Origin: a virus
Strand: one strand, 5' to 3'
Virus record (IMG/VR): IMGVR_UViG_3300046535_000607
Location: 1 to 21,213 of that record
DNA: 21,213 nucleotides
Under the pieces are notes generated by a model. The model was not told the DNA's origin. It searched no databases and worked only from the letters and a program-made list of their open reading frames with translations. The stretch's first letter is position 1; every line of letters starts with the position of its first letter. The translations under genes were made by a program, and so were the position numbers. Positions 2,545 to 19,723 of the stretch are shown one piece after another.

Positions 2545-3375
2545 TTACCACCAGTAGATACGGACTTCACCACGGAAGCCATTGCCGCCTTTGCCGCCAG
2601 CCTGAGCAGCGTACGCAGCGCCACCACCACCGCCACCGCCCCCATTCGCCGTGGCATTACCACCAGGACTTCCGGGAACGGTATTGTCACCGCCCGTGCC
2701 GCCGCCGCCCCCCGTGCCCACCGCCATCCCGCCGAAGTAGCCCACGCCACCGTTAGCGTTCGCTGGGGTCGCGGGGACGTTCACGCCCGGTCCGACAGTG
2801 AATCCACCAGTGAATGGACCACCGCCGACGAATGGCGATTGTCCACCACCACCACCAGTCGGGGCAACATACCCGAGATTCTGCGCGCTGGTGCCCGCCG
2901 TCCCCGAATCGGTGCCCTTGCCTCCTTGGCCCCCGCCTGCGGAGTTGAACACAGCAAACGACCCCTGCTGTGCGTATCCACCGGTGACGGTCACTTGTCC
3001 AGGCTGACCGGCATTGCCGCCCGGCAGGGTGAAAAAGCCGCCAAACGACGTCGTGCCGCCTGCGGTGCCGTTCGAGCCATAAACGCTCACCCCCGCCGCC
3101 GAACCAGCGCCGCCCACCCCGCCTGCGCCCACAATGACAGGCACGGGCGCGGTCAAGAAGGCGGCAGGGAATAAGCAGCAAACGATACCGCCGCCTGCCC
3201 CGCCCGCCCCGCCCGAAGGCGACCCCCCGCTGCCGCCGCCTGCGCCACCGCCGCCGCCCGAAATGGCCTCTACAAAGTAGAAGTTAGCCCCAGGTTGCGG
3301 GGGAAACACTCCACTGGTGGTCATCACCAGCGATTTGGCCCCCGGAGGGACCGTGAAACCAGCCGGGAAAGTCAT
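2545..3375 (-). CDS. glycine-rich tail tip / receptor-binding protein candidate
   Basis: 276 residues, starting with an ATG that overlaps the upstream stop (TAATG). After ~38 residues the chain is dominated by glycine, with poly-Gly runs at about 39-45 and near the C-terminus separated by short hydrophobic or beta-like strands, and it closes with FRGEVRIYWW. This pattern is known from phage fibre tips whose glycine-rich segments form packed polyproline-II helices that carry variable receptor-binding loops (the S16 gp38-type adhesin is the structural precedent). Its place, two genes after the fibre and before a fibre accessory gene, fits a distal adhesin that sets host range. Low-complexity composition makes family assignment uncertain; an alternative is a general structural glycine-rich protein. 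Confidence 0.6.
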   Translation of the reverse strand: MTFPAGFTVPPGAKSLVMTTSGVFPPQPGANFYFVEAISGGGGGAGGGSGGSPSGGAGGAGGGIVCCLFPAAFLTAPVPVIVGAGGVGGAGSAAGVSVYGSNGTAGGTTSFGGFFTLPGGNAGQPGQVTVTGGYAQQGSFAVFNSAGGGQGGKGTDSGTAGTSAQNLGYVAPTGGGGGQSPFVGGGPFTGGFTVGPGVNVPATPANANGGVGYFGGMAVGTGGGGGTGGDNTVPGSPGGNATANGGGGGGGGAAYAAQAGGKGGNGFRGEVRIYWW

Positions 3376-4420: not shown

Positions 4421-6193
4421 TTAATTCTCCATGTTGTCACCGGCTGCGCCCCCGAGGGAACCGCCGACGAGTTGTGCAATTTTGCTGGGTGGCATCTTCA
4501 TGAGGTCCGACATCGAAATACCCTGGCGACGGAGTGCGTCCACAGTCTTCGGATTGGTCAGCACCTTTTGCAGGATGCGGCCCGTGGTCGCGCCGCTTGC
4601 CATCAGCGTGGCGAGGCCCGCGACACCATGTGCGCCGCCAGTCGCCGCGCCGCCTCCCAGGATGCTCAAGGCCATGTACCGGGGGACCGTACCCGAGTTC
4701 GGGACCTGATCGCGGACAAACTGCCGTCCGACTTGACCCAGATCGCCCAAGGTCCCGCGCCCGCCCATCGCCATTGCCTCTTTCCCGGCCTCGGTCGAGT
4801 TGAGGGCGTTTGACAAGGCAGTCGGTGGAACATCGCCGTTGCCCATGTCCTTGGCCACGATGTCGCGTACGGCCTTGAGATTGCGATATTGTCCACGGGC
4901 TTGCATCCAGGCGTCCTTATCGGCCCCGGAAACCGAGCGGTCCATGCCGTCGCGAAGGGCCGACTGCAGCCGCTTAGCGTACTGGCCCTTCTCGCCCCCC
5001 GCCTTGATCATGTTCCCGAGTTCGGTGTCGATGGACTGGTAAGTGCTGCCCGCGACTTTGGTGACCGCTGGCGCGCTCGTTGCGGGGGCGGTGACGATCG
5101 GTTGGCCGTTTGTGCCGAGGATGTTCGAAGTTTGGGCCGGTACGTTGCCCCCGGTCGTGCTACCTTGTTCATCGATTCGCCCCAGGATGTTTTCGATTGC
5201 CGCACGGGTGTCGTCGCTGGCGGTGTTGGCCGCGTCTTTGCTGATGCCGTCCAGGTGCTTCGCGAGGGCCGGGTCGACATTCAGGTCGTTGCGCTTGGTC
5301 AGGTCGTTGAAGGTGTCGCCGATGCGCTTCTTCGCGGACGCATATACTTCGGGCGTGATCTTGGGTACGTCCTCCCCGAAGGTCTTACCGACTGCGTTGG
5401 TGAAGGCCGTGCGCTGCTTCTCCGCCCATTGGGCCGCGCCCGTGAACGGGATATGCTCCAGGGTCGACGCCAGAGTCTTCACGAACTTGCTGTCGCCCAG
5501 CTGTGCCACGTTGACCGGCACGCCCAGGGCTTTCGCCTTGTCGTACAGGGCCAGGGCTTCCGGCGTGATCTTGCCAGCCAGGGATTTCAGGCCCGTCTTC
5601 GCTACGCTGCCCAGCGCCTGTGCCGCCTTCGGGATCACGACCCCGCCGACCGTGGTGGTTACGCCCGAGATAGCCGCGTTTTCCAGGCGTTCGCCCGGAG
5701 TGCCGTACTCGGCTCCCTTCGTGGCTGCTGCTGCCGCTCCCATCCGGAGGGCCGCACTACCTGCCGAGACCGCACCGCCACCGACTGGAACAGCGAGAGC
5801 AGGGAGGGTCTCGCCGACCCCCGTGGCCACCGGGTGTTCCTTCTGGAGCGCCTGATATGCGTGCTCCTCTTCATCAGCTTGCTGCTTGAGGTCGGCGGAG
5901 GCTTTGTCATTGCCGGTCACGGCGTACCAGCCCTGTTTCATGCCCTTACCGATGCGGTCGAAGGTATGGCCCGCCCCCACCAGGATGGCTTCGCCGGTCC
6001 CGGTGTCCTTGGCGACTTGGGCCTGAGCGGCATCCTTGGGGGACGGCTGCTGCAAGCGTGCGAGGATTTGCTGCGACGTGAAGCCCGCCTTGCGAGCCCC
6101 CGCCACATTGAAGCCCATCTTGGCACCCATTTCGTCGGCGATCTGGTCGTCGGTGAAACCGGCTTTGCGGGCTGAATCGATGTCAAAAGGCAT
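4421..6193 (-). CDS. ejection / internal virion protein, third of three (P22 gp16-like position)
   Basis: 590 residues; the ATG at 6193 has AAGGAG 6-7 nt upstream. The N-terminus carries a tandem repeat with a 25-residue period: ARKAGFTDDQI (8-18) and ARKAGFTSQQI (33-43), small helical modules seen at the front of podovirus ejection proteins. Residues ~123-192 are rich in Gly/Ala/Val and poor in charge, suited to inserting into or crossing a membrane; the rest is helical and Lys/Ala-rich, with another Gly-rich stretch near the C-terminus. In P22 three such proteins leave the capsid with the DNA and form a conduit across the cell envelope. The assignment rests on order, size and composition, not on a named domain. 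Confidence 0.68.
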   Translation of the reverse strand: MPFDIDSARKAGFTDDQIADEMGAKMGFNVAGARKAGFTSQQILARLQQPSPKDAAQAQVAKDTGTGEAILVGAGHTFDRIGKGMKQGWYAVTGNDKASADLKQQADEEEHAYQALQKEHPVATGVGETLPALAVPVGGGAVSAGSAALRMGAAAAATKGAEYGTPGERLENAAISGVTTTVGGVVIPKAAQALGSVAKTGLKSLAGKITPEALALYDKAKALGVPVNVAQLGDSKFVKTLASTLEHIPFTGAAQWAEKQRTAFTNAVGKTFGEDVPKITPEVYASAKKRIGDTFNDLTKRNDLNVDPALAKHLDGISKDAANTASDDTRAAIENILGRIDEQGSTTGGNVPAQTSNILGTNGQPIVTAPATSAPAVTKVAGSTYQSIDTELGNMIKAGGEKGQYAKRLQSALRDGMDRSVSGADKDAWMQARGQYRNLKAVRDIVAKDMGNGDVPPTALSNALNSTEAGKEAMAMGGRGTLGDLGQVGRQFVRDQVPNSGTVPRYMALSILGGGAATGGAHGVAGLATLMASGATTGRILQKVLTNPKTVDALRRQGISMSDLMKMPPSKIAQLVGGSLGGAAGDNMEN

Positions 6194-6202
6194 TGCGTCT
6201 CC

Positions 6203-7771
6203 TTAGTGCCAGAACGAGTCGATCTGCGGAGCTTTCATCGCTCCGGAGGCGCTCTGGGTCGAGGCCGGGCTCGGGGCCGGGGCAGGTGCTCCAGGCACAG
6301 CGGCGGGGCCAGCCGGTGCGCCGGACATGGTCTGGCGGATGGTGCGGGCCTCGGGGGAGAGCCAGCGGTCCGAGAAATCCTTGCGCTTGGTGCCGGACTC
6401 GTATTGCTGACCCAGGGCGTTCAACTGGCCGACCAGCAGGTGTTGGTACGTAGTAATCACCCCCTTCAACTGCTGCGGGGAGCTTGCGTGAGCGATGGTC
6501 GATTCGATTGCTTGACGCTCATGTTCGCCACCACCATTTGCCACCATCGCCGACACGAGCTCCTTAGCTACCAGTTGCTTAGCGGCTTCGAAGTTCTGCG
6601 GAGCGGTCCCGCCCGTTTGATTCTGCCAAGCGTTGGCCAGCGAGTTCCAGGCGGGGGCGCTGCGGTTGTTCAGGTTATCGACCAGCCCACCCAACGTCGT
6701 CAAGTGCGAAGTCACCGCATTAAAGGCACGGACCTTGGTGCCGAGCGTGCCTTGCGCGAAGTTCTTGTCGGCGGCTTGGGACGTGTGATAGTCCTGCTCG
6801 TTGTAGTTCGGGTTTGCAGCGTAGACCGCCGCCATGACCTTCATACCGCCCGGCTTGGACGCAGCATAAGGGCTCATGGGGGCTTGGCGGTATTCGGCGA
6901 TCGCTTTAGCCACGGACCCAATCTGCTCGTCGGGTACGTCGTCCTTCGACGCTGCTTCCTTCGTGGCATCGATCTGGTCGTGGGCCGTCCTGGAAGTCAT
7001 ATCTTGGCCCCGGCGCTGGGTTGCGTCCGACGCTGCTGCGTCCGGGGTAATGGTCTTGGCGGCATCGGTGCCGTCCGAGCGGACCCCGGTGAGCAGGTCG
7101 ACCGTACCATTGTTGACGACGCCACCACGATCCTGTGAGTTGAATTGCGGGAGCATGGTTTTCAGGCGCTCATTGGCATCTGCGGCACGCATACCGGCTT
7201 GAACCAGCCAGCCATGCAAAGCTTGCGGGTCACTCATCGGCATCGTCGACACGAGGTTGCGGGCATAGGTATCGACATCGACGCCCGCATGCTTAGCCTG
7301 GACATCGAAGGCACCGGCATTCGCCAGCCGGGCGGTCTCGGCCATGACCTTCTGCGGGGTCACTTGCGGGTCAGCCGCCAGACCGGCGATGCTGCCGTCC
7401 ACCATGGCCAGACCCTTTTGCAGGGTAGCATGCGTGGTTTGGTCGGTGACCGCGTTGGCTTGGGACGTCTGAGCGTTCACGTGGGCCAGTTCGGCATTCG
7501 CCTTGTTGAAGCCGGGAATTGCAACGCCCGCGCCGCCTTGCGCCAGTCCGGCCCGCACCTTGTTCGGGTCGACGGTTCCGTCTGCCCCGGTCGCGGCCTT
7601 ATATGCGTCGTTCATGACTTGAGTCTGACGCTGGGTCGCGGCCTGCGCATCGAGTTCATTCTGTTGGCCCTGATACTTCTGGGCGTTCAGGTAGACCGAC
7701 GACAGGTCGTTCAGCGGTGCATAGGCGTTGTTTGCGCCAGCAAGGATGAGATTGGGATTCAGTTCCGGCAT
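6203..7771 (-). CDS. ejection / internal virion protein, second of three
   Basis: 522 residues from the ATG at 7771, which lies next to the upstream stop with GGAGG just before it; the longer open frame upstream of this has no support. Residues 1-280 are Ala/Gln/Asn-rich and helical. Residues ~285-460 form a more conserved domain (VAKAIAEYR, MAAVYAANPNYNEQDY, AFNAVTSHLTTLGGL, SPQQLKGVITTYQHLLVGQL) that I recognise from large virion proteins of many proteobacterial phages with ejection or DNA-transfer roles. The C-terminus is Pro/Ala-rich. It probably corresponds to the P22 gp7/gp20/gp16 set. Translation is likely coupled to the preceding gene. Confidence 0.7.
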   Translation of the reverse strand: MPELNPNLILAGANNAYAPLNDLSSVYLNAQKYQGQQNELDAQAATQRQTQVMNDAYKAATGADGTVDPNKVRAGLAQGGAGVAIPGFNKANAELAHVNAQTSQANAVTDQTTHATLQKGLAMVDGSIAGLAADPQVTPQKVMAETARLANAGAFDVQAKHAGVDVDTYARNLVSTMPMSDPQALHGWLVQAGMRAADANERLKTMLPQFNSQDRGGVVNNGTVDLLTGVRSDGTDAAKTITPDAAASDATQRRGQDMTSRTAHDQIDATKEAASKDDVPDEQIGSVAKAIAEYRQAPMSPYAASKPGGMKVMAAVYAANPNYNEQDYHTSQAADKNFAQGTLGTKVRAFNAVTSHLTTLGGLVDNLNNRSAPAWNSLANAWQNQTGGTAPQNFEAAKQLVAKELVSAMVANGGGEHERQAIESTIAHASSPQQLKGVITTYQHLLVGQLNALGQQYESGTKRKDFSDRWLSPEARTIRQTMSGAPAGPAAVPGAPAPAPSPASTQSASGAMKAPQIDSFWH

Positions 7772-7772
7772 G

Positions 7773-9302
7773 TTAACCTCCCGAGGGCTTCGAGCCCATG
7801 GTCTTGAAGGTGGTATAAGTGTTGGCGATGCGGTTGAGCGCACCCTGCCAGATTTGGCCCTGAGCCGCAGCGCCCGCCGCCTCAGCATTGGCCGCACCGT
7901 AGATGCCGTTGGTCTGAGCATTGGTGACAGCGTTGATACCGTCTGCCGTAGCGTTGCCGATAGCGAGGGTGCCGTTGGCCTTGATGCCTGCCGTGCCTTG
8001 AGCGAGCAGCGAATCGTTCTGGCCAGAGGCATTGATGCGGGACGTGTCGACGTTACCCAGGTCGATGGTCTTCGACGAATTCAAGTTGCCGATGGCGACC
8101 AAGTTATTCGCCTGCGACGCACCGAGATTCGTGGTCAAATCACTGTTCAGCCCGGCGACGGTCTGGGTCGTGTTGCCCGTCATCGTGCCGATGTTGCTCA
8201 GGTTATCGCCCCTGGTTTGGCCATTCGCAGCAGCGACGCCCGCAGCGTAGGCCGCGCCGTCCTTGATGTTGCCGCTGGTGTAAGCGCCGCCTGCCTGATC
8301 CAGGCCCGCCTTTTGGGTGCCCGCGTTGGTCAGGTTGTCGGACTGCTTGCCGGAATAGGTCACACCCAACTGCGATGCCGAATTCGTCGCGCCGAGGCCG
8401 GTGTTGACCAAGGAGCTCAGCCGCGTGAAGCGGTTTTGCATGTCGGTCTGGTAACGCGTCCACGAGTTGTTGTATTCGTTCGACGCGTAGTCCTGGCCGT
8501 AGTCGGTGATCGCCTTGAGTCCGTTGCCGGACAACAGACCGCCCCGCGCCGCCGCCGAATTTTCGACCATGTTCTGACCCTGATCCTTGCGGAACTGGTA
8601 GCCAGGGTCATTGGCCATGATCTGATCGGCCGTCAGCTTCTGGTTGAATTCACCGCCGTCCTTGACCCCGGCAGCAAGCTGGGTATTGGCGTCCAGGCCG
8701 GTCTGGATGATCGGCTTGTAGTTCGCAACATCGGTGGAGTACTGGTCCTGCAGAACCTTGTTCGCAGCAGTGACCCCGGCGTCGATGTCGCCCTTGGCGC
8801 TGTTGATAGCCGCCATGTAATTCGCGTTGGCTGCGCTGATACCTGCCTGATACAAGGCGTTGGCATCATTCCGGCCCCCGGTGATGGCGGCGGTCGCAGC
8901 GTTGGCGGCGTCGACACGTTGTTGCAGGGCCTGCTTGGCCCCGTCGATCTGCTGCTGCGTGCCGGTCTGCAGCGATTGTTCGTAAACGGTCTGGGCCTGC
9001 TTGGCCGCGTCGATAAGCTGCTCCGTTGACGAATTGATGGCGGCTGTCTGCGCCGCCGAGGCGTCGGCAATCGTCTTCGTGTTGATGTCGTGAGAAGAGT
9101 TCAGGCCCGACAACTGTTGATCAGTCGAGTCGTTGATCGCCTTCACACGCACATCAGCTGCCTTTTGGGCATTAGCCGCCCCCAGGTCTGCAGCTTTGTT
9201 GGCCGCGTCCTTTTGGGTGTTGGCGGCGTGGCGAGTACCGTCGGACGCGATTGCCGCCCCCGCCACCGCTGCGCCGCCCACCACGACTGCTGCAATTACC
9301 AT
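7773..9302 (-). CDS. ejection / DNA-transfer protein, first of three
   Basis: 509 residues from the ATG at 9302, preceded by GGAGG and only one base after the GNAT stop codon. Residues ~2-19 are a hydrophobic Val/Ala/Gly segment that could be a membrane anchor. The following 200 residues are a long Ala/Gln/Asn/Asp-rich helical region with coiled-coil character. Residues ~232-320 hold the recurring phage module DPGYQFRKDQGQ, SAAARGGLLSGNGLKA, YGQDYASNEY, NRFTRLSSL, known from DNA-transfer or tail proteins of many phages. The remainder is a Thr/Asn/Gly-rich repetitive tail. The module plus order support an ejection protein that helps carry DNA through the envelope. Confidence 0.75.
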   Translation of the reverse strand: MVIAAVVVGGAAVAGAAIASDGTRHAANTQKDAANKAADLGAANAQKAADVRVKAINDSTDQQLSGLNSSHDINTKTIADASAAQTAAINSSTEQLIDAAKQAQTVYEQSLQTGTQQQIDGAKQALQQRVDAANAATAAITGGRNDANALYQAGISAANANYMAAINSAKGDIDAGVTAANKVLQDQYSTDVANYKPIIQTGLDANTQLAAGVKDGGEFNQKLTADQIMANDPGYQFRKDQGQNMVENSAAARGGLLSGNGLKAITDYGQDYASNEYNNSWTRYQTDMQNRFTRLSSLVNTGLGATNSASQLGVTYSGKQSDNLTNAGTQKAGLDQAGGAYTSGNIKDGAAYAAGVAAANGQTRGDNLSNIGTMTGNTTQTVAGLNSDLTTNLGASQANNLVAIGNLNSSKTIDLGNVDTSRINASGQNDSLLAQGTAGIKANGTLAIGNATADGINAVTNAQTNGIYGAANAEAAGAAAQGQIWQGALNRIANTYTTFKTMGSKPSGG

Positions 9303-9303
9303 A

Positions 9304-9762
9304 TTAGCCTCCGATCCATTTGGAATGATAAATTTCGATCGGCTCAAAGCCGAGGCGCTTGAACATCGCACTTGCATCTGCCTTCAGCTTGCAGCCGACG
9401 TACCAGCGCTGGACACCACGCCGCTTGAGCTCCTTCTCGACCGCACGGAACAGGCGAACGCCGGGGAGCCCGTTACCGCGTGCTGAGGGGTGGACGAAGA
9501 AGATGTCCATCTTGCAGCTGAGGCAGGTATTGTAGTGGAGGCCCGGCGAGATAAACCCGATGAAGTAGCCCACCAGCTTGCCGTCATCGCGCATCGTCAT
9601 GAAGATCAACTGGCCGTCGCGCTCGTGCCCAATGTAGACATTGTAAGACGGGGACAGCGGTACGCGGTCCTGGTCCATTGCGAGCTCTTTATAGTGCTCG
9701 GGGAGCAGGACTTTCAGTTCTTCAAGGCGATCTTCGAAGCTCTCAAGCTGGTAGGTTCTCAT
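9304..9762 (-). CDS. GNAT-family N-acetyltransferase in the virion gene cluster
   Basis: 152 residues; the ATG overlaps the upstream oxygenase stop (ATGA). The GNAT core is readable: an N-terminal helical part, strand KLVGYFIGF (62-70), motif A with IFFVHPSARGNGLPG (87-101), whose R95-G96-N97-G98 should bind acetyl-CoA pyrophosphate, a helix (VEKELKRRG), and the motif B tail FKRLGFEPIEIYHSKWI. It should transfer an acetyl group to an amine; the substrate is not known. It sits between the oxygenase and the ejection proteins and shares their operon, so a virion protein or an early host protein target is possible. Similar GNAT genes occur in structural modules of other podoviruses. Cytoplasmic, no signal or TM. 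Confidence 0.85.
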   Translation of the reverse strand: MRTYQLESFEDRLEELKVLLPEHYKELAMDQDRVPLSPSYNVYIGHERDGQLIFMTMRDDGKLVGYFIGFISPGLHYNTCLSCKMDIFFVHPSARGNGLPGVRLFRAVEKELKRRGVQRWYVGCKLKADASAMFKRLGFEPIEIYHSKWIGG

Positions 9763-10307
9763 TCTGATGTCCGGATATCAACGATTAAGTGGATGCGGTC
9801 ATCAGCGCTGTTGTTGATGACCTCGTGTTCCTTGGTGTTGTCAAACCACCATACTTGGCCGGTCTGCATGGACACCATTTCATCCCCCGAACGGAACAGG
9901 CAACCCGGTGCCGAGTTCAGGACGATGTGGAACCTCTCATAGTACCACGCCGGAGCGCCGCCGTCAATATGGGGTGTGATCTTGCAGCCTGGAGCTAGAC
10001 GGGTCGCGAGCACCCGCCCGAGGCGCTCACCGCCGACGCGACGCATGAGGTCAAACACCAGGGCCTGAGCCTGCGGAAGCCGCCACCACGCTGGGTAATT
10101 GATGCACTCGATATCGTCGACAACCTTCTCGGGGACATCTTCCTCGATCTTGTTGAAGCGCAGCCAGATGTCGTCCACCGCAGCATGGGCCGTGTTCGGG
10201 TGGTCGGTGCGCAGGGTGTTTTGATTCCACAGGTCCGGCTGGCGCATGATGGCATTCAGCAGCGGGATCGTGTCGACGTTTGCAGCGAGGCATTGGAAAT
10301 TACGCAT
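9759..10307 (-). CDS. aspartyl/asparaginyl beta-hydroxylase-like 2-oxoglutarate/Fe(II) oxygenase
   Basis: 182 residues, with the start overlapping the upstream gene by 8 nt. The C-terminal half shows the cupin-type oxygenase core: PHIDGG (112-117) giving His113 and Asp115, RFHIVLN (125-131), WWFDNTKEHEVIN (153-165) giving His161, and RIHLIVDI (171-178) whose Arg171 is placed to bind 2-oxoglutarate. The FDNTKEHEV...R...VD pattern is characteristic of the aspartyl/asparaginyl beta-hydroxylase family. The first metal motif reads His-x-Asp, a full facial triad; from memory, animal AspH has Gly at the Asp position. The expected reaction is oxygen-dependent hydroxylation of a residue on a protein, possibly another substrate. 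It is tightly coupled to GNAT and ejection-protein genes; target unknown. Confidence 0.83.
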   Translation of the reverse strand: MRNFQCLAANVDTIPLLNAIMRQPDLWNQNTLRTDHPNTAHAAVDDIWLRFNKIEEDVPEKVVDDIECINYPAWWRLPQAQALVFDLMRRVGGERLGRVLATRLAPGCKITPHIDGGAPAWYYERFHIVLNSAPGCLFRSGDEMVSMQTGQVWWFDNTKEHEVINNSADDRIHLIVDIRTSE

Positions 10308-10548
10308 TGTAGTACGGCACCTTTCGGGCCACTCCGTTGTTGTCGTTGATAATCATGAAACCGGCAGGCTGCGCCGGGAGGGTTGCAGTTCCCGCCGTGG
10401 CGGTGTCGGTGGTGGTCCCGTCCAACATGCGCAGCTTCTTGGCCACGACGTCGAGGAAGCGGAACCACTGCCGGGAAAACAGGTTGGGCCGATCCATGTC
10501 GGAAATCGGCGTGTCTTGTGAGATATAAGTCTGATTATTGTTCGACAT
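10300..10548 (-). CDS. small tail-region protein
   Basis: 82 residues; the start overlaps the gp10-like gene by 14 nt and the end overlaps the oxygenase by 8 nt, so it is sandwiched in a coupled chain. Residues 22-43 (NLFSRQWFRFLDVVAKKLRMLD) form an amphipathic helix. The second half is Thr/Ala-rich and ends PAGFMIINDNNGVARKVPYYNA, a short beta unit of a type common in small podovirus proteins next to tail genes. There is no clear Shine-Dalgarno, so coupled translation is likely. It is far too short for a P22 gp26-type needle. Probably a minor virion or head-completion component; function not known. Confidence 0.65.
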   Translation of the reverse strand: MSNNNQTYISQDTPISDMDRPNLFSRQWFRFLDVVAKKLRMLDGTTTDTATAGTATLPAQPAGFMIINDNNGVARKVPYYNA

Positions 10549-11962
10549 TGAAGTACGCTCCCATGACGGTAAACGGGGTCGGCTCCGAGTAGGACAATTC
10601 GAATACCCGGTCGCGGGCCTGACCGAGGCGCAGGAAGCGGACGCGTTGGCGGAAGTTGCCCGCCTTGCCGATCGATTTCATCCGGGCGTTCCTGAATGTG
10701 TGGCCGTAGTCATCGGACCAGCGCAACTTGACTTGGGGATCGGAGCCCTGGCCGGACTGGAGGCCGACGCCGGTTTCGATGGCGAATTCGATGTTGTTGT
10801 ACGAGACCTTCGTGCCCCCTTTGCTCAGGTGCGGAGCAGTGCGAAGGCGCACCAGGGGATTGCCGTCATCCGTGTACAACAGCGTGGACATCTTGTAGAG
10901 CTTGCCGCGATTCCAGTCGCCGACGATATTCGCCCCCCCGAAGAACACGTGGCAATTGCCGCGATGCCTGGAGAAAGTGCCGGTAATATCGAGCCATGCA
11001 CGCTGGTGCCACGTGGCGCTGGTCATGTCGTAGACCCAAGTGATGTTTTGGGTCGGGAAGGTCAACATGTAGAAATAGTGGCCCTCGGCGGCATACGTGA
11101 ACCCGATAGCGTCGGAAATCACCGGGTAAGTCGCGATCTCCTGTTCGAGCGAGTGGTCACTGATGCGCGAAGTCGCCAGACCTTGGGTGCGGAATACGAC
11201 GCCCTGGCCTTGGTCGTTGGCCGACAAGAAGAACAACGATCCGTTCATCCGGGCGACACTCGACTTGGCGGCACAGCCTTGCTCAATCAGGACACCTGGA
11301 ATCTTGGAGTACGGGAACGGCTGAGTCGGGTCCGGAGCCCATACTTCGAGCGTCTGCGTGCCGAACAGCCATACCTCTTGGTTCGCCACTGCTAGGGTGA
11401 TAAGCGCGTCCGGCGTCGCCTCGGCAGTGGCGAACCACAGCGGGTCGATGGTGGTCGAGTACGGCTTCATGCCCCAAAACTTGCCCGAGTTGGGCTGATT
11501 GAACAGATAGCTGCCGTTGATGAAGTATACCGCATCGGCCCCGAAGAAGTTCGCGTCGACGTACTTCGTGACCGTGTTGGCGGCGGGATCGATCACGTAC
11601 GCCTCGGTGCCGGTTACGAACACCACATTGATGCCATTGGTGGCCATCGACACGGGGGTATCCACGGACGTAATCGCGCCGATAACGGTCGCGACCCCGG
11701 CAGCAGTGACCCGGAGGACCTTCGGGCCAGTCACGACGAACAAGCTGTTCGCATCGAATACCAACATGCCGCGAACACCACGATCGCCGACTGCGGTGAA
11801 GTCGCAGAACGACTGCAGGCCGGGGGCGCTCACCAGCTTGGCTGGGGTCTTGGATGTCGAACTGGCCGACACTTCCGGATACATGTTGACCGTGCGCTGA
11901 GCGTCGAAGCTCGCTGCACGGTCCTTGTGGGAACTACCCACGAATCCAACGAGTTCAGGCAT
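10535..11962 (-). CDS. P22 gp10-like packaged-DNA stabilisation / tail hub protein
   Basis: 475 residues from the ATG at 11962, which overlaps the gp4-like stop (TAATG); this gives MPELVGFVGSSHKDRAASFD. The length is very close to P22 gp10 (~470). The chain has the hallmark opening RAASFDAQRTVNMYPE and a long series of beta repeats such as FVVTGPKVLRVT and EVWLFGTQTLEVWA, consistent with a beta-propeller-like hub. In P22, gp10 binds gp4 below the portal and closes the packaged head together with the needle. The order gp4 then gp10 matches the P22 group. Confident family call by pattern and synteny. Confidence 0.85.
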   Translation of the reverse strand: MPELVGFVGSSHKDRAASFDAQRTVNMYPEVSASSTSKTPAKLVSAPGLQSFCDFTAVGDRGVRGMLVFDANSLFVVTGPKVLRVTAAGVATVIGAITSVDTPVSMATNGINVVFVTGTEAYVIDPAANTVTKYVDANFFGADAVYFINGSYLFNQPNSGKFWGMKPYSTTIDPLWFATAEATPDALITLAVANQEVWLFGTQTLEVWAPDPTQPFPYSKIPGVLIEQGCAAKSSVARMNGSLFFLSANDQGQGVVFRTQGLATSRISDHSLEQEIATYPVISDAIGFTYAAEGHYFYMLTFPTQNITWVYDMTSATWHQRAWLDITGTFSRHRGNCHVFFGGANIVGDWNRGKLYKMSTLLYTDDGNPLVRLRTAPHLSKGGTKVSYNNIEFAIETGVGLQSGQGSDPQVKLRWSDDYGHTFRNARMKSIGKAGNFRQRVRFLRLGQARDRVFELSYSEPTPFTVMGAYFNVEQ

Positions 11963-12684
11963 TATCCAACCCTCCAATCCCAGCTACGGCCCGACTGGAC
12001 ATTCGGGATATCGTCGAACGTGGCCGGGGTCGGGTCGCTGTTTGCGTTCTTGATGTCACGCAGCGCTTGCTTCGCGATGTTCTTGACCGACGTGATATCG
12101 GTGGTGCTATTCGTGTACTCGGGCCAGAGTTCGACCGCCAGATTGTACCGGATCGCGCGCAAGTAGCCGGGCGGGAGGTTCAGCACGGTCTGCAAGGTCA
12201 GCGGGGTCGCGAATTGGCGGTCGGTCTGGAACGAGAGGGTGACTGCCTCGGTCGGGACCGGGAAGCAGGTCAACACCCCCAACGGGAAGGAATTGATGTA
12301 TAACACCTTCTCGATGAGAGGCTGCGAGGTGCTCTTGAGAGCGATGCTGTCGTATTGGTCCTGCGTGACGACTTCCACGGGGGTGGACACGCCGTTGCGG
12401 ATGCAGGTGGCATTATTGATTCGGACCGGGCGCTGCGTGGTGAAACCGGTCGGGCCAGCGGTGAGACCCCAATTGTAGGTGGCCTGTCCTGGAGTCAGGA
12501 CCCAATTCTCGTTGGTGCTGCCATATACGGCATAAGGCTGAGTATCCCAGCCGTCGAGCATTTCATTGAGGGTCAGCAGCGCGTCGTTGAGGTCAGCATT
12601 GTCCGGAATCTCGCCCGCAGCGATCGCATTGATCAGGTACATGGAACGACGGATCAGGTCGACTACTGCGATGGATTGGGACAT
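11962..12684 (-). CDS. P22 gp4-like tail accessory factor (head completion)
   Basis: 240 residues; the ATG at 12684 has a weak AAGAG upstream. Residues 1-55 (VVDLIRRSMYLINAIAAGE, DLNDALLTLNEMLDGW) are the helical part that in P22-type gp4 sits against the portal ring. A beta region follows (WVLTPGQATYNWG, PVRINNATCIRNG), then an LPPGYLRAIRYNLAVELWPEY segment typical of this family. In P22, gp4 is the first protein added after packaging and stops DNA leaking. It is longer than P22 gp4 (~166 residues), which is usual for relatives outside the enterobacterial group. A stable hairpin lies in the 80-nt gap upstream. Confidence 0.85.
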   Translation of the reverse strand: MSQSIAVVDLIRRSMYLINAIAAGEIPDNADLNDALLTLNEMLDGWDTQPYAVYGSTNENWVLTPGQATYNWGLTAGPTGFTTQRPVRINNATCIRNGVSTPVEVVTQDQYDSIALKSTSQPLIEKVLYINSFPLGVLTCFPVPTEAVTLSFQTDRQFATPLTLQTVLNLPPGYLRAIRYNLAVELWPEYTNSTTDITSVKNIAKQALRDIKNANSDPTPATFDDIPNVQSGRSWDWRVG

Positions 12685-13568: not shown

Positions 13569-14786
13569 TTACAGCGCGTAGCCGCAGGACAGTTCGGCGT
13601 AAGGCGCAGCCCAGCCGTACAGCACGTCGATACGCATGATCGAAGTGTCACCCATGCCGTCGTAGAATTCCGTCACTTTCAGACGGAAGCCCTTGTACTC
13701 GGTCTGGGTAACGTCGACGACGCCCTTGCCGTCCTTCGGAGCCCACATCGGCACCATGGCCAGCGTGAATGCGTCCTTGTGGAAGCCAGGGTTGAAGGCA
13801 TACTGGCCGCTGGCGGTGCCGAAGATCGTGACGGCGGCGGCGTTGACCGGGCTCGCGGACACGTTCTGGAACACGCCGGTCGGGATCAGAGCCGGGCTGA
13901 TCGACAGCGAGGTTGCACCGGCTGCAGCGTCGGCGGTCACGACGAACTGAGCCAGCGTGCCGGTCGACTGGCGCGATTGCGGGTTGACGGCGTAGACACC
14001 AGCGAAGCTGATCTTCGAGCCACGGGTGATGTTGCCGGTGATCGTGCCGCCGTTGACGTTGATCACGCTGCCCGACTGGCCAGCGCCGTTGACGGTTGCC
14101 GCGCCGACCGGCTGCGAGCCGTTGACGTGGTTCTGGACGTTCTGGTCCATGGCGTAAGCCAGACCCAGCGAATCCACCATCATGCCCTGCTTCATCTGCT
14201 TGTCGATGATCGAGGCCGAGTTGAACATGCCCGACATGCCGACGACCATCGAAGCGTTCAGGGCCGGATTCATGATCAGGCCACGGCGCTTGTCACGCGG
14301 GGCACCGAGTTCGTCCAGGCGCTGATTCAGGCCGGTCACAGCTTGCATCGCGGCCAGCTGGGTGTTCGGGGCAGCGCCCGGAGTGCCGATCACGTTCGGC
14401 GAGTTCAGGCGGGCCATGTCCAGGCCGCGACGGTCGATTTCGTTGGCGACGGTGGCGATCGCTGCCTGGATTTTGTCTTCCAGCTTCGACAGGGTCAGGG
14501 TGCGCTCAGCGCCGGTGAACTGCAGGTCGCAACCACCTTGCGCCAGGGTCAGCGGGATGGTCGACTCGACGGTGCTCTGCGGCGTGGCGACGCGGCCATC
14601 GCGGTACTGGTAACGCGGCGGGCGCTTGATGTTGATGGTCTGGCCCGGCGAGTAGCCGCGCGACATGTTGGAGGTGAATTCATCCTCCCAATCGCGGTTG
14701 ACCATCGACGAGAAGCCCAGCATGTTTTCCAGGATGGCGACGGCTTCCTTGGCCACCACTGCGGTTGTTGCGAGTACGTTGGACAT
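13569..14786 (-). CDS. major capsid (coat) protein, P22 gp5-like
   Basis: 405 residues; the ATG at 14786 has AGGA upstream. The opening MSNVLATTAVVAKEAVAILE, then NRDWEDEFTSN and SPGQTINIKRPPRY, with LQFTGAERTLTLSKLEDKI, follow the P22-type coat family (HK97 fold with an inserted domain; P22 coat is 430 residues). The N-arm, the spine helix (KLEDKIQAAIATVANEID) and a later beta insertion (GSVINVNGGTITGNITRG) are visible in order. It forms the capsid shell over the scaffold encoded just upstream. A 26-nt gap with a good ribosome site precedes it and a UUCG hairpin follows it, consistent with high independent output. Confidence 0.9.
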   Translation of the reverse strand: MSNVLATTAVVAKEAVAILENMLGFSSMVNRDWEDEFTSNMSRGYSPGQTINIKRPPRYQYRDGRVATPQSTVESTIPLTLAQGGCDLQFTGAERTLTLSKLEDKIQAAIATVANEIDRRGLDMARLNSPNVIGTPGAAPNTQLAAMQAVTGLNQRLDELGAPRDKRRGLIMNPALNASMVVGMSGMFNSASIIDKQMKQGMMVDSLGLAYAMDQNVQNHVNGSQPVGAATVNGAGQSGSVINVNGGTITGNITRGSKISFAGVYAVNPQSRQSTGTLAQFVVTADAAAGATSLSISPALIPTGVFQNVSASPVNAAAVTIFGTASGQYAFNPGFHKDAFTLAMVPMWAPKDGKGVVDVTQTEYKGFRLKVTEFYDGMGDTSIMRIDVLYGWAAPYAELSCGYAL

Positions 14787-15800: not shown

Positions 15801-15829
15801 AGTGTACCACGATTCCTCGTGGCTGTCAA
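15801..15829 (-). promoter_or_regulatory. sigma70 promoter for scaffold-coat genes with a palindromic spacer
   Basis: On the minus strand the -35 TTGACA (15829-15824, six of six) and the -10 TACACT (15806-15801, four of six) are separated by exactly 17 nt, and the -10 is preceded by TGG (extended -10 context). The spacer contains the perfect dyad CCACGAGGAATCGTGG (15807-15822), 6-bp arms around GGAA. The -35 overlaps the portal stop codon. The dyad may be an operator; a factor bound there would lie between the two RNA polymerase contacts. The predicted start is near 15794. Confidence 0.7.
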
Positions 15830-18027
15830 TTCCCCCCGAGTAGGGAAGGAGGCGTATTCATCGGTTCGGGCTGGGCTGGCGGGGCTGCGGGCTCCTGTCC
15901 GGGCGCGCCAGGAGCCACCGGGCTCGGGTCTGCACTTGGCGTAGCAGCACCGTTCGACCAATCCTGGGCGACGTCTTGAGTGAGACCGGGCGGAGGCTGC
16001 ATTTTGGCGATAAGAAGCTTGACCAGTCCTGTAAGTTCCGCAGTGTCCTTTCGGCTCTCCGAGACAATGTGAGCGACTTCGACTTGCGCTGTCGATTTAA
16101 TGCGCTCCCTTTCGATGGCGGCATTGTTCTTGTCGGCTTCTTGCTGGGCTTCTTGGAGCTTTTGCTGAAGTTCAGCGATTTGCTGCTGTGCCTCGGGCGG
16201 AATGGAGCTTTGGCCATTTTGCGGGTCATCCTTGATATTTGCCGGGATAGTGCGGGCGATGCGCTCCGCAATCTCCTCCGCGCCCGGCCAGTTCATTGCC
16301 TTGACCACCTTGTCGCCTGCAACGTCCATCAGCTTCGGCCAGCTTTGGCCAAACTGCACCATTGCGTCGGCTGCTTCTGCACGCATCGTGGCGTAGGACG
16401 GCCCCGAGGTTACTGCGATGTCATATTGCCGGACCGACAGGTCGTGCATGAACGTGGTTGCGAGGGCAAGAGGGTCCGCCGCCTGCGGGCTGACCGGTTG
16501 CGGGTTCGCTCCTGGTTTGACCTCGTCGGTGCTCACTGGCTGGTTGACCGGCACTGCCACGGTCGTCCCATCCTCGCCCCGGCTCCGGACGATCCGGGGG
16601 GCGTCGTAGTACGCCGGGATCATGTCCAGGAGTACCTTGCCCGCGTGACGGAGGGTCCGGGTAAAGTTGTCCATGTAGTGGTAGTTAGCCACATTGCCCT
16701 GCTTCTGCTGCGCGAGCTCTTGCTTGCCGCTGGTGGCGTTGCCCGCAGCCCCGAGCGAACTATCGAACAGCCCGGTGGTCTGCTTGACGTTATCCGAGGC
16801 ATGGTTCGCCATCATCAGCATGCCATTGGGGATATCCGCCATGGCTTGGCGCTGAGGAGGCGGGGCCAACTGGCCGTTGATTTCGATAGGCTTGTATTCG
16901 AGGAACGGGAAGCTGCGGTTGTTGGCCTGATTCCACTTCTTCTCGTGGCCTTCGAACTGGCCTTCCGCGCCGATGTAGGGGGTCTTCGGACGCAGGGACA
17001 CCTCTTCGGTGGCCGAGGTCATCCAGAAGTTGTACATCATTGCCGGGTCCTTGGCATTGCGGATCAGGCCCGCCCGGAACACCTTGCCGTCGATGTCGAT
17101 TTCCGTACCGTAGCACGGGAACACCGGAATCCACTTCGACATGATTTCGGTCTCTTCCAGTACCTCATAAGGGGTGCAGAGATACCACATGACTTGGCGG
17201 CGGACGCTCTTGCGGGTGGCGACCACGTTGACGCCTGCAGGCGGCTTTTCCCAGGTCACGGAACCATCGCCGAGCTTGTAGACGGTGCCGGGGGTGAACT
17301 TGATCTTGTAATACTCGGCCACGCGGACCATCTGCTCCCAGACCCAATCCTGGATATGGGCATCGCCGACCGCGTAAGTGTCGAATCCCTGCTGGGTGAT
17401 TTCGGCATCCGGGTACTTGGCCTTGAACTCGTCGCGGGTCATCTTCTCGGTGATCAGCGCCCACTGCATGTCGGAACCGTCCGCCTCGGCGCTTGACGGG
17501 TCGATGGACACCGTGAAAGCGTTGCGGATACGCTTGATGCGGATCACCTGATCGAACGATTCCGGGTCTTCATATTCGGTGATGAAGCGGAAATAGCCGA
17601 AGCCGATCGCCGCCGCCGAGTTGACCGCCGTGTCGTAAGCAGCGTCCGCCGACGAATCATATTCGATGTGGCGAATCATGCCCTGGATCAGTTCGGCGGT
17701 CTTGGTGCTGGCGTCCATACCAACGGCGGACACCTTCATACTGGCCCGGTTCTGACGCTGGTCATTGGTGACCTGCTGCAGGAACGTCGGAATCTTGTTG
17801 ACGGTCAGGCAGGGTCGGCCTTCGGCCTCGCGCTTGCGCTTCTGGTCCTCAGGCCATTGGTCGCCTCGCAGGAAATTCAGGTCGTTGAGGGCCTCCTTGC
17901 GGGAGTCGCCCTCAGCGGTCCCCGAAATGCGGAAACGCTCCTTCATTTCGGCCAGAATGGTGCTGTGGCCTTCGCTTACCCCGGCCTTCTTCTGGTCGGG
18001 ATTCTCGGGGGTGCCGTCTTGTTTCAT
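15826..18027 (-). CDS. portal protein, P22 gp1-like
   Basis: 733 residues (P22 gp1 is 725); the ATG at 18027 overlaps the preceding stop (TAATG). The family opening is present: EGDSRKEALNDLNFLRGDQW, GRPCLTVNKIPTFLQQVTNDQRQNR, then IGFGYFRFITEYEDPESFDQ and DPSSAEADGSDMQW. The central region follows the P22-type portal domains, and about residues 612-672 form a Gln/Glu-rich coiled coil (QQIAELQQKLQEAQQEADK) before a Pro/Ala-rich tail, equivalent to the barrel and tail helices. The portal is the dodecameric vertex ring through which TerL packages DNA and to which gp4 attaches. The scaffold promoter overlaps its last codons. Confidence 0.92.
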   Translation of the reverse strand: MKQDGTPENPDQKKAGVSEGHSTILAEMKERFRISGTAEGDSRKEALNDLNFLRGDQWPEDQKRKREAEGRPCLTVNKIPTFLQQVTNDQRQNRASMKVSAVGMDASTKTAELIQGMIRHIEYDSSADAAYDTAVNSAAAIGFGYFRFITEYEDPESFDQVIRIKRIRNAFTVSIDPSSAEADGSDMQWALITEKMTRDEFKAKYPDAEITQQGFDTYAVGDAHIQDWVWEQMVRVAEYYKIKFTPGTVYKLGDGSVTWEKPPAGVNVVATRKSVRRQVMWYLCTPYEVLEETEIMSKWIPVFPCYGTEIDIDGKVFRAGLIRNAKDPAMMYNFWMTSATEEVSLRPKTPYIGAEGQFEGHEKKWNQANNRSFPFLEYKPIEINGQLAPPPQRQAMADIPNGMLMMANHASDNVKQTTGLFDSSLGAAGNATSGKQELAQQKQGNVANYHYMDNFTRTLRHAGKVLLDMIPAYYDAPRIVRSRGEDGTTVAVPVNQPVSTDEVKPGANPQPVSPQAADPLALATTFMHDLSVRQYDIAVTSGPSYATMRAEAADAMVQFGQSWPKLMDVAGDKVVKAMNWPGAEEIAERIARTIPANIKDDPQNGQSSIPPEAQQQIAELQQKLQEAQQEADKNNAAIERERIKSTAQVEVAHIVSESRKDTAELTGLVKLLIAKMQPPPGLTQDVAQDWSNGAATPSADPSPVAPGAPGQEPAAPPAQPEPMNTPPSLLGGN

Positions 18028-18374
18028 TATTTACCCTTGGTCTTGATGATAATTGCGTGCATTCGGGCGAGCATCACCTTGTCCCCGTTCGGGAGCGGCG
18101 TGAAACCGAACTTCCCGTACCATTCGACAAGCTGCTCAGTCGACATCGGCTCGTCGTCGAAGGGCTCCACCATGAGGACCAGGACGATCTTGCGATTGTC
18201 GGCATCCTTGCAGATGTAATTCATGAGTTCCGTAGCATGGCCCTTGTGCCGGAATTCCGGCAGGGTCTGCAGGTGCGAAATCTCGCGGATGTCCTTCTTC
18301 ATGTGAGCAGGCAGTGCATCGCAGAATGATACCATGCACTTTGCTCCTTCGTAAACGCGTTCACCGATTCTCAT
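18027..18374 (-). CDS. GNAT-like acetyltransferase between terminase and portal
   Basis: 115 residues when started at the ATG at 18374, which overlaps the TerL stop (TAATG); a TTG 12 nt upstream could extend it by four residues. The core of a compact GNAT fold is visible: ISHLQTLPEFRHKGHATELM (32-51) gives strand 4 and motif A with R42-H43-K44-G45-H46-A47 for acetyl-CoA binding, KIVLVLMVEP is strand 5, and LVEWYGKFGFTPL (82-94) is motif B. The N-terminal part is short compared with typical GNATs (~140-160 residues). Its substrate is unknown. It lies inside the packaging block, joined by overlaps at both ends, which is unusual for a modifying enzyme. Confidence 0.78.
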   Translation of the reverse strand: MRIGERVYEGAKCMVSFCDALPAHMKKDIREISHLQTLPEFRHKGHATELMNYICKDADNRKIVLVLMVEPFDDEPMSTEQLVEWYGKFGFTPLPNGDKVMLARMHAIIIKTKGK

Positions 18375-19723
18375 TATCCCATCCAATCCCCGGCCACATA
18401 GCCCATATCGTCTTCAATCTCCTCGCGAACCTTCCGGCCCTTCACCATGCCGGGAAACAGTTCTGCGAGCGCCCAAAACAAAGCATCGGCCCTATTCGGG
18501 GAACCGGTGCCCACGTATCCAATCGTCGAGAAGTGCACGATCTCCTCTTCCAAGTCCTGGAACCGCCCGACGTGCCGCACTTTCCCCTGCTCGTACAACG
18601 CCGAGAAGGGTTCCGCCCGGATATGCTTCCCTCGGGAGGCCGTGACGGTCTTGAAGGGGGTCTTCGGACGGCTGGTCTGGATCACGAACTTCACCATTGC
18701 GCCACCGTAGTTGGTCTCGCCCACGATCACGTCGGCCTCGTGCCGGTCGTAAGCGGAGGTGGCAACGTCGCCCCAGACCTTCGGCCCCGCCTTGACGGTA
18801 CAATCCTCCAGGATGTATGCGTTGCCGTCGATACCCAGGCCCGCCACCACGATACCAATCGCGTCGTTCTCGGCGTTGTCCTTGTCGTCGGAGCCGGACG
18901 GGTCGACAGCCACCACAATGCGGACGAACTCGGGAATGTCATCATCCCCCGCCCGCCACATTTCGATAATCTCGTCCTTGAACAGGGCATTCTGCGTTGC
19001 GTCGGCGAAGTCGCCGTCCTTGAAACGCTTCCGCAGGCGGGCGGACAACTGCCCCAGCGTGTCCATGTACGTGGAGCTTAAGTTCTCCTTGTTGTCCTCC
19101 GGGTTCATCTTGCAGAACACGTAGTCAGCAGGATTCGGCAGGCTGATCTTGGTATCCGGGTCGACCTTCTGGATGAACAGCTTGTACGTCCAGTGCATCT
19201 TGTTGGACGGATTGCAGTCGTAGAATGCGCGGGGCTTGAGGTAGACGCCGGGCTGGCCGTCAACCTCCACCTGCTGTGCAAGGCGGGTCATCGCCATGCC
19301 GCGTGCTTCGTTGGTGATCTGGCTGGCCTCGTTCAGGTACATCGTAACGTATTCTTGGCCCAGAATCTTCTCGGTGCGCTCCTTGTCGTCCAGGCCGCCG
19401 AACCAAATCTCGGAGCCATTGGGGAAGCGCACGAACCAATCCGTCTTACTCAGGTTGTACGTGATTTCCGGGTAGCAGACCTTCATGACCTTCGGGAAGG
19501 TATCGAAGATCACCGAGGCTTTGATGTGGTTGAAACGGAAACGCAGGATGGCGTGCCTGGACCCGGATGCCTTGAGCGCGCGGAGCACGATGTTGCGGAC
19601 GTGGAGGAACGTCTTGCCCGAACGGGAGCCGCCGTAAAGCATGCCGTGCGTGGCCGACCCCGCCAGAATGGCTTGGGCCTCCTGTTGCTTCGCGGTGAGC
19701 TTGAATTCGGTACGCTGAGCCAT
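18374..19723 (-). CDS. terL: terminase large subunit (packaging ATPase/nuclease)
   Basis: 449 residues; the ATG at 19723 overlaps the 39-aa gene stop (TAATG). Walker A is GGSRSGKT (31-38); the Walker B-like strand is VTMYLNEAS (126-134) with catalytic Glu132, where Asn131 replaces the usual Asp. The C-terminal RNase H-like nuclease shows three well-placed acidic residues: Asp274 in VVAVDPSGS, Glu336 in VIVGETNYGG and Asp413 in NRADALFWAL. The enzyme pumps DNA through the portal and cuts the concatemer. Slightly shorter than P22 gp2 (499). Follows terS in the packaging block. Confidence 0.95.
   Translation of the reverse strand: MAQRTEFKLTAKQQEAQAILAGSATHGMLYGGSRSGKTFLHVRNIVLRALKASGSRHAILRFRFNHIKASVIFDTFPKVMKVCYPEITYNLSKTDWFVRFPNGSEIWFGGLDDKERTEKILGQEYVTMYLNEASQITNEARGMAMTRLAQQVEVDGQPGVYLKPRAFYDCNPSNKMHWTYKLFIQKVDPDTKISLPNPADYVFCKMNPEDNKENLSSTYMDTLGQLSARLRKRFKDGDFADATQNALFKDEIIEMWRAGDDDIPEFVRIVVAVDPSGSDDKDNAENDAIGIVVAGLGIDGNAYILEDCTVKAGPKVWGDVATSAYDRHEADVIVGETNYGGAMVKFVIQTSRPKTPFKTVTASRGKHIRAEPFSALYEQGKVRHVGRFQDLEEEIVHFSTIGYVGTGSPNRADALFWALAELFPGMVKGRKVREEIEDDMGYVAGDWMG

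Follow-up and report, generated by a model that had tools for sequence, protein, structure and literature searches.

The locus raises the question of what an aspartyl/asparaginyl hydroxylase-like (AspH-like) enzyme does in the virion operon of a short-tailed phage, and which protein it would act upon. The window, meaning the whole stretch of DNA analysed (21,213 nucleotides), comes from a P22-like short-tailed phage and is a linear virus record of 21.2 kb, with its genes on the minus strand. These run in the order terminase, portal, scaffold, P22 coat, head closure Hc3, an 82-aa ORF, the AspH-like gene, a GNAT acetyltransferase gene, and three ejection-type genes. The features relevant to the question are as follows.

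15826..18027, minus strand: portal of the P22 family (PF16510, P22_portal, 593 bits)
13569..14786, minus strand: major capsid protein of the P22 coat family (PF11651, 119 bits)
11962..12684, minus strand: conserved protein before head closure (phrog_12985)
10535..11977, minus strand: head closure Hc3, P22 gp10-like (phrog_578, 2.3e-122)
10300..10548, minus strand: 82-aa ORF upstream of AspH, overlapping the AspH start by 8 nt and varying between phages
9759..10307, minus strand: AspH-like Fe(II)/2-oxoglutarate (2OG) oxygenase, 182 aa, PF05118, with predicted ligands H113, D115, and H161 and predicted 2OG-binding R171
9304..9762, minus strand: GNAT acetyltransferase, 152 aa (PF00583, 36.3 bits against a cut-off of 20.7; phrog_1249), placed where P22 has gene 14 and T7 has gene 13
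7773..9302, minus strand: P22 gp7-like DNA-ejection protein, 509 aa, start MVIAAVVVGGAAVAG at 9302 (phrog_598, 4.9e-21), the proposed substrate
6203..7771, minus strand: second ejection-type protein, in the P22 gp20 position, with its true start MPELNPN at 7771
4421..6193, minus strand: third ejection protein, in the P22 gp16 position (phrog_26400 DNA ejection protein, 2.6e-69)

The first-pass annotation had the coordinates of the AspH-like ORF exactly right, and the three motifs it read there (PHIDGG, FDNTKEHEV, and RIHLIVDI) are all present. The ORF is on the minus strand, starts with ATG, and encodes 182 aa. Its description of the surroundings as a tail gene block was slightly loose. The gene lies between the ejection genes and the head-closure gene with the 82-aa ORF. 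The product of 6203..7771 is 29% identical to gp28 of Rhodoferax phage P26218, which has the same position. Two further genes of the window were recorded. A second small GNAT (18027-18386, minus strand) is encoded between terminase and portal, with counterparts in the same place in P26218 (35.5%), EBPR podovirus 1 (a weak GNAT match), and loci L050 and L060. A glycine-rich protein (2545-3375, minus strand; Gly_rich_2, 33.6 bits) is encoded downstream of the ejection genes and is perhaps a tail tip or adhesin.

Family, fold and catalytic residues

The product of 9759-10307 matches Pfam PF05118 (Asp_Arg_Hydrox) with 67.6 bits against a cut-off of 22.6 (E 1.5e-18). Its sequence matches in the PDB include human AspH (8.5e-5) and L-proline cis-4-hydroxylase (cis-P4H; 1.2e-4). 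In the PDB alignments H113/D115, H161, and R171 pair with the HRD, H, and R of cis-P4H, and D115 has no Asp partner in human AspH. The AlphaFold2 model, built on a 57-sequence alignment, is a double-stranded beta-helix with a pLDDT of 94.6. VIA-align places it with a nucleoside-antibiotic hydroxylase, proline 3-hydroxylase, cis-P4H, and AspH at Z 14.4–15.9, with 144–166 residues aligned at 14–20% identity. As these top matches are tied in Z, no substrate can be deduced from them. It is near certain that the protein belongs to the PF05118 2OG/Fe(II) oxygenases, the class that the first-pass annotation had read from the motifs, and the comparison of a predicted structure with AspH and related enzymes that it had proposed returned the same fold.

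H113 and D115 are invariant in 180 distinct phage sequences, H161 occurs in each of the 179 that extend to it, and R171 is kept in 177 of 178. The full HxD...H triad described at first pass is borne out by this retention and by the alignment to cis-P4H. The absence of the Asp from animal AspH, named at first pass, also agrees with the alignment; its use to mark HxD as a special feature does not hold, because bacterial cis-P4H has HxD too. The triad of the phage protein is thus no novelty, and animal AspH is the exception among the relatives aligned. The gene is under purifying selection, with a dN/dS of 0.03–0.24 between near relatives.

More specific assignments were tried and rejected. The animal AspH type, with an HxG dyad and a TPR domain, is ruled out as D115 is invariant and 182 aa leave no room for the TPR domain. 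The LpxO lipid A hydroxylase model (NF033391) gives 20.1 bits against an equivalog cut-off of 500, and the protein scores far below the cut-offs of the ornithine-lipid and non-proteinogenic amino-acid hydroxylase models.

A profile scan of IMG/VR confirmed 229 viral relatives, of which the best 80 were retrieved as sequences. Five annotated phage records carry a homologue (PfAn1 of Pseudomonas fluorescens, DC33, the Manatee Spring podovirus, and Itty13 twice). A profile search of bacterial genomes found 27 relatives, mostly in prophage-like loci, with hosts that include Paraburkholderia, Cupriavidus, Massilia, Janthinobacterium, Achromobacter, Sphingopyxis, and Acinetobacter. For the most part these are aerobic bacteria, as would be compatible with an O2-using enzyme. 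The phage sequences form about 121 clusters at 90% identity and 52 at 70%. AspH is nearly absent among 226 phage records with a related portal (five AspH records overall). Most P22-like isolates do without it, so this type of virion does not in itself require AspH.

PF05118 genes in phages also occur away from ejection genes. In Pseudomonas phage Itty13 (L004:7686-8240) a PF05118-like gene lies among replication genes and encodes HxG rather than HxD, like animal AspH. A chromosomal, non-phage operon of Rhodobacterales and relatives (L120-L124, e.g. L123:5386-9685) combines an AspH-like protein with a hydrolase-like protein, a CbiA/DUF1611-like P-loop protein, and an ABC transporter, perhaps as a peptide or amino-acid pathway.

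Gene neighbours and the place before the ejection gene

The GNAT start overlaps the AspH stop in the ATGA at 9759-9762, and the GNAT model has a pLDDT of 95.8 and a GNAT fold at Z 16. GNAT is the next gene after AspH in all 101 loci examined, and the gene after GNAT belongs to a single homologous family, P22 gp7-like, in 96 of them. The two enzyme genes overlap in 85 of these loci, by 4 nt in 51 (ATGA-type, as in the window), by 1 nt in 21, and by 7 nt in 13. The gene before AspH falls in more than 25 clusters. A reciprocal search with GNAT found AspH upstream in 80 of 80 loci; both sets consist of top hits with many contigs in common and are not independent. The coupling to GNAT and the ejection genes noted at first pass is thereby confirmed, and AspH lies within one gene of a DNA-ejection protein gene in well over a hundred related phages.

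The association persists in several rearranged loci. In four of them (L044, L051, L060, and L066) the head-closure gene now lies downstream of the ejection genes, and AspH, GNAT, and the ejection gene are still together. DC33-type phages have another portal family (phrog_332), and in DC33 and 24 contigs the order AspH, GNAT, small gly-zipper protein is intact, with one further contig stopping inside AspH. In relatives of L016 a cupin-like protein takes the place of GNAT after AspH, and a glycine-rich protein comes next (24 of 24). No homology to gp7 was detected for this 343-aa glycine-rich protein; most of the loci L247-L270 encode a homologue of the third ejection protein two genes beyond it and downstream of AspH-cupin. 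Manatee Spring phage ctXG1253 has AspH immediately upstream of a phrog_21132 DNA-ejection gene. As AspH without GNAT still lies beside ejection genes in the AspH-cupin loci and ctXG1253, the constant neighbour is the ejection block.

The place itself is occupied by other proteins in other phages. GNAT stands alone before an ejection-type gene in AspH-free relatives, among them Zobellviridae, and P22 gp14 and T7 gp13 share this slot by position. With single sequences as partners, hhalign gave a probability of only about 0.4% each between the window GNAT and P22 gp14 or T7 gp13. The named isolate closest by portal is Rhodoferax phage P26218, whose slot protein is cupin-like in its first half and SET-like in its second, and in Vibrio phage VvAW1 and Shewanella phage X14 the slot holds a protein resembling the cupin half. 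The cupin-SET family was found at 74 IMG/VR loci, none of which has AspH or GNAT, and an ejection-type gly-zipper gene follows wherever the contig extends that far. The SET domain was detected in 18 of 20 members (best 4.5e-8), with motifs that align with the MLL1 SET domain. Such lysine-methyltransferase-like fusions beside ejection genes were recorded at L273:13584-14459 and L276-L349, and PHROGs files their cupin half under tail fibre names.

Two direct swaps with homologous flanks were identified. One is between the window and P26218 (portal 50%, coat 68%, ejection protein 46%), and the other is between ctXG1253, with AspH, and ct1fd225, with SET. These gene-order comparisons give good support for a conserved but exchangeable place next to the ejection gene. 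Literature searches, in which subscription papers were thinly covered, returned no description of the AspH-GNAT-ejection cassette or of the exchangeable slot. Already reported are GNATs beside internal virion proteins and, under the name of an auxiliary metabolic gene (AMG), the AspH of phage DC33.

Mirror-tree comparisons gave a distance correlation with AspH of rho 0.36–0.40 for GNAT, 0.15–0.22 for the ejection protein, and 0.05 for the coat; structural genes mostly track each other at 0.3–0.7. No structural gene in this comparison strongly follows AspH divergence and so stands out as substrate, and GNAT follows best. The AspH-positive label needs at least two changes on the GNAT tree. By these figures AspH-GNAT is a cassette moving among backgrounds and not a tightly co-evolving enzyme-substrate pair.

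The ejection protein as candidate substrate

The ejection gene starts at 9302 directly behind the GNAT stop and has a GGAGG site. Its family profile matches P22 gp7 in both hhalign (95%, 1.8e-8) and hmmsearch (6e-15). The first residues of the protein switch with the content of the slot, being mostly MVAAA in AspH-GNAT loci and MSG or MSA in 18 of 19 SET loci, and the rest has the same conserved positions in both groups of phages. Apart from the N-terminus, no residue was found to be conserved only in AspH-type phages, and no single hydroxylatable residue separates AspH-type from SET-type ejection proteins. A tree of the ejection protein built without the N-terminus mixes the two types, with nine switches of which at least four are forced, although this was a quick tree with long branches and the counts are rough.

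About ten AspH-type ejection proteins carry a mostly basic leader of 14–26 residues that ends directly before V-A-A-A. In seven of these the codon at that point is not a usual start, and the leader therefore looks real. Carriers among the genes after GNAT include L020, L050, L070, L090, L093, and L118, and the leader often ends in Cys-x before V-A-A-A. The record annotation of P22 gp7 states that host OpdA removes its first 20 residues. These observations suggest that the mature N-terminus is important and is perhaps the site at which the slot enzymes work. The N-terminal switch can be read just as simply as hitch-hiking of the first codons, since the slot gene directly adjoins the ejection-gene start.

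The preferred reading, given a probability of roughly 0.45, is that AspH, partnered by GNAT, hydroxylates the gp7-like ejection protein at a site probably close to the N-terminus. The data point to this protein because AspH stays with the ejection genes while its other surroundings change, and gene order makes it a likelier substrate than tail or host proteins. The proposed mechanism begins with a presumably active Fe(II)/2OG-dependent hydroxylase of the PF05118 fold, expressed from the virion operon out of the exchangeable slot just upstream of the gp7-like gene. AspH would most likely be co-translated with GNAT and the ejection protein. It would hydroxylate a side chain of that protein, probably in the conserved glycine-zipper-like N-terminal stretch (V-A-A-A-V-V-G-G...), and GNAT would acetylate the same protein, perhaps at its N-terminus. 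Proteins of the gp7-like class act at the outer membrane, and ejection proteins are soluble in the cell and the capsid yet form channels in the envelope. The marks may help the ejection protein to stay soluble and unpolymerised, to be packaged, or to insert into the envelope. Other phages may meet the same need via GNAT alone, a cupin, or a cupin-SET methyltransferase.

The closest competitor is that AspH and GNAT act on a host protein or another virion protein, such as one of the tail or capsid, and that the site is an insertion-tolerant and late-expressed place. The weak co-divergence of AspH with gp7 is consistent with this, as are the movement of the cassette between backgrounds and the varied proteins that GNAT and SET enzymes modify elsewhere. 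It is nonetheless judged unlikely, since AspH-GNAT stays before the ejection gene where the head-closure gene has moved, since the place is also kept in the DC33 phage type, and since unrelated enzyme types converge on the same slot.

A metabolic role is improbable; AspH would here aid the infected cell by lowering 2OG or by hydroxylating a small metabolite or a free amino acid. The closest solved structures do include free-proline hydroxylases and a nucleoside-antibiotic hydroxylase, the DC33 paper lists the gene among AMGs (PMC12195039), and a cyanophage paper proposed roles via 2OG levels (PMC3037559). The fixed place in the virion operon, the translational coupling to GNAT, and replacement by SET or cupin proteins at the same site argue against it.

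Least probable is an assembly chaperone that keeps fold and metal site and works by binding, as P22 gene 14 and T7 gene 13 may: P22 gp14 and T7 gp13 do occupy the same position, T7 gp13 is linked to virion morphogenesis (PMC6775973), and the slot cupins may be non-catalytic, but the three metal ligands are invariant and the 2OG arginine nearly so down to about 30% identity, which argues for catalysis.

Modification of the ejection protein may also be one case of something wider. It is tentatively proposed that the slot holds one of several protein-modifying enzymes (a 2OG hydroxylase paired with GNAT or a cupin, a lone GNAT, a lone cupin, or a cupin-SET methyltransferase), each of which would modify the neighbouring ejection protein at its N-terminus, with oxygen-dependent virion maturation in some phages. 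If so, neighbour-encoded enzymes would set the change of the ejection protein by hydroxylation, acetylation, or methylation, and phage assembly would have a further, hidden layer. A role would also follow for the position occupied by the P22 gp14 and T7 gp13 genes, and the infectivity of some phages would be tied to oxygen.

Comparison with known systems

The bacterial PF05118 hydroxylases cis-P4H and proline 3-hydroxylase type II resemble the phage protein in fold (Z about 15 over 144–166 residues), and the HxD...H triad and 2OG arginine of cis-P4H align with it. They differ in sequence (19% identity) and length (about 260–290 aa versus 182 aa), and the phage copy lies in a virion operon. Animal AspH has the Pfam domain in common with the phage protein, the PDB match covering the C-terminal half (E 8.5e-5). 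Unlike animal AspH, the phage protein has no TPR domain and no known EGF-like substrate, and its Asp ligand is present.

ORF8 of Limnohabitans phage DC33 is an AspH homologue 32% identical to that of the window, and is followed by GNAT and the small gly-zipper protein. It was published as an AMG, and its place beside an ejection-type gene is not discussed in the available part of that paper (PMC12195039). The DC33 record (PQ492659.1) is filed under Inoviridae, yet the phage is tailed, 39 kb in size, and has terminase-like and portal-like genes.

In a study of cobaviruses, a GNAT encoded beside internal virion proteins was suggested to be the counterpart of T7 gp13, with a possible role in morphogenesis (PMC6775973). 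Both resemble the window GNAT in their position beside ejection proteins; AspH is not mentioned in that study. A parallel to the exchange itself is gp30 of P26218, which lies in the same slot between homologous flanks, with a cupin followed by a SET lysine-methyltransferase-like domain replacing the hydroxylase and the acetyltransferase of the window.
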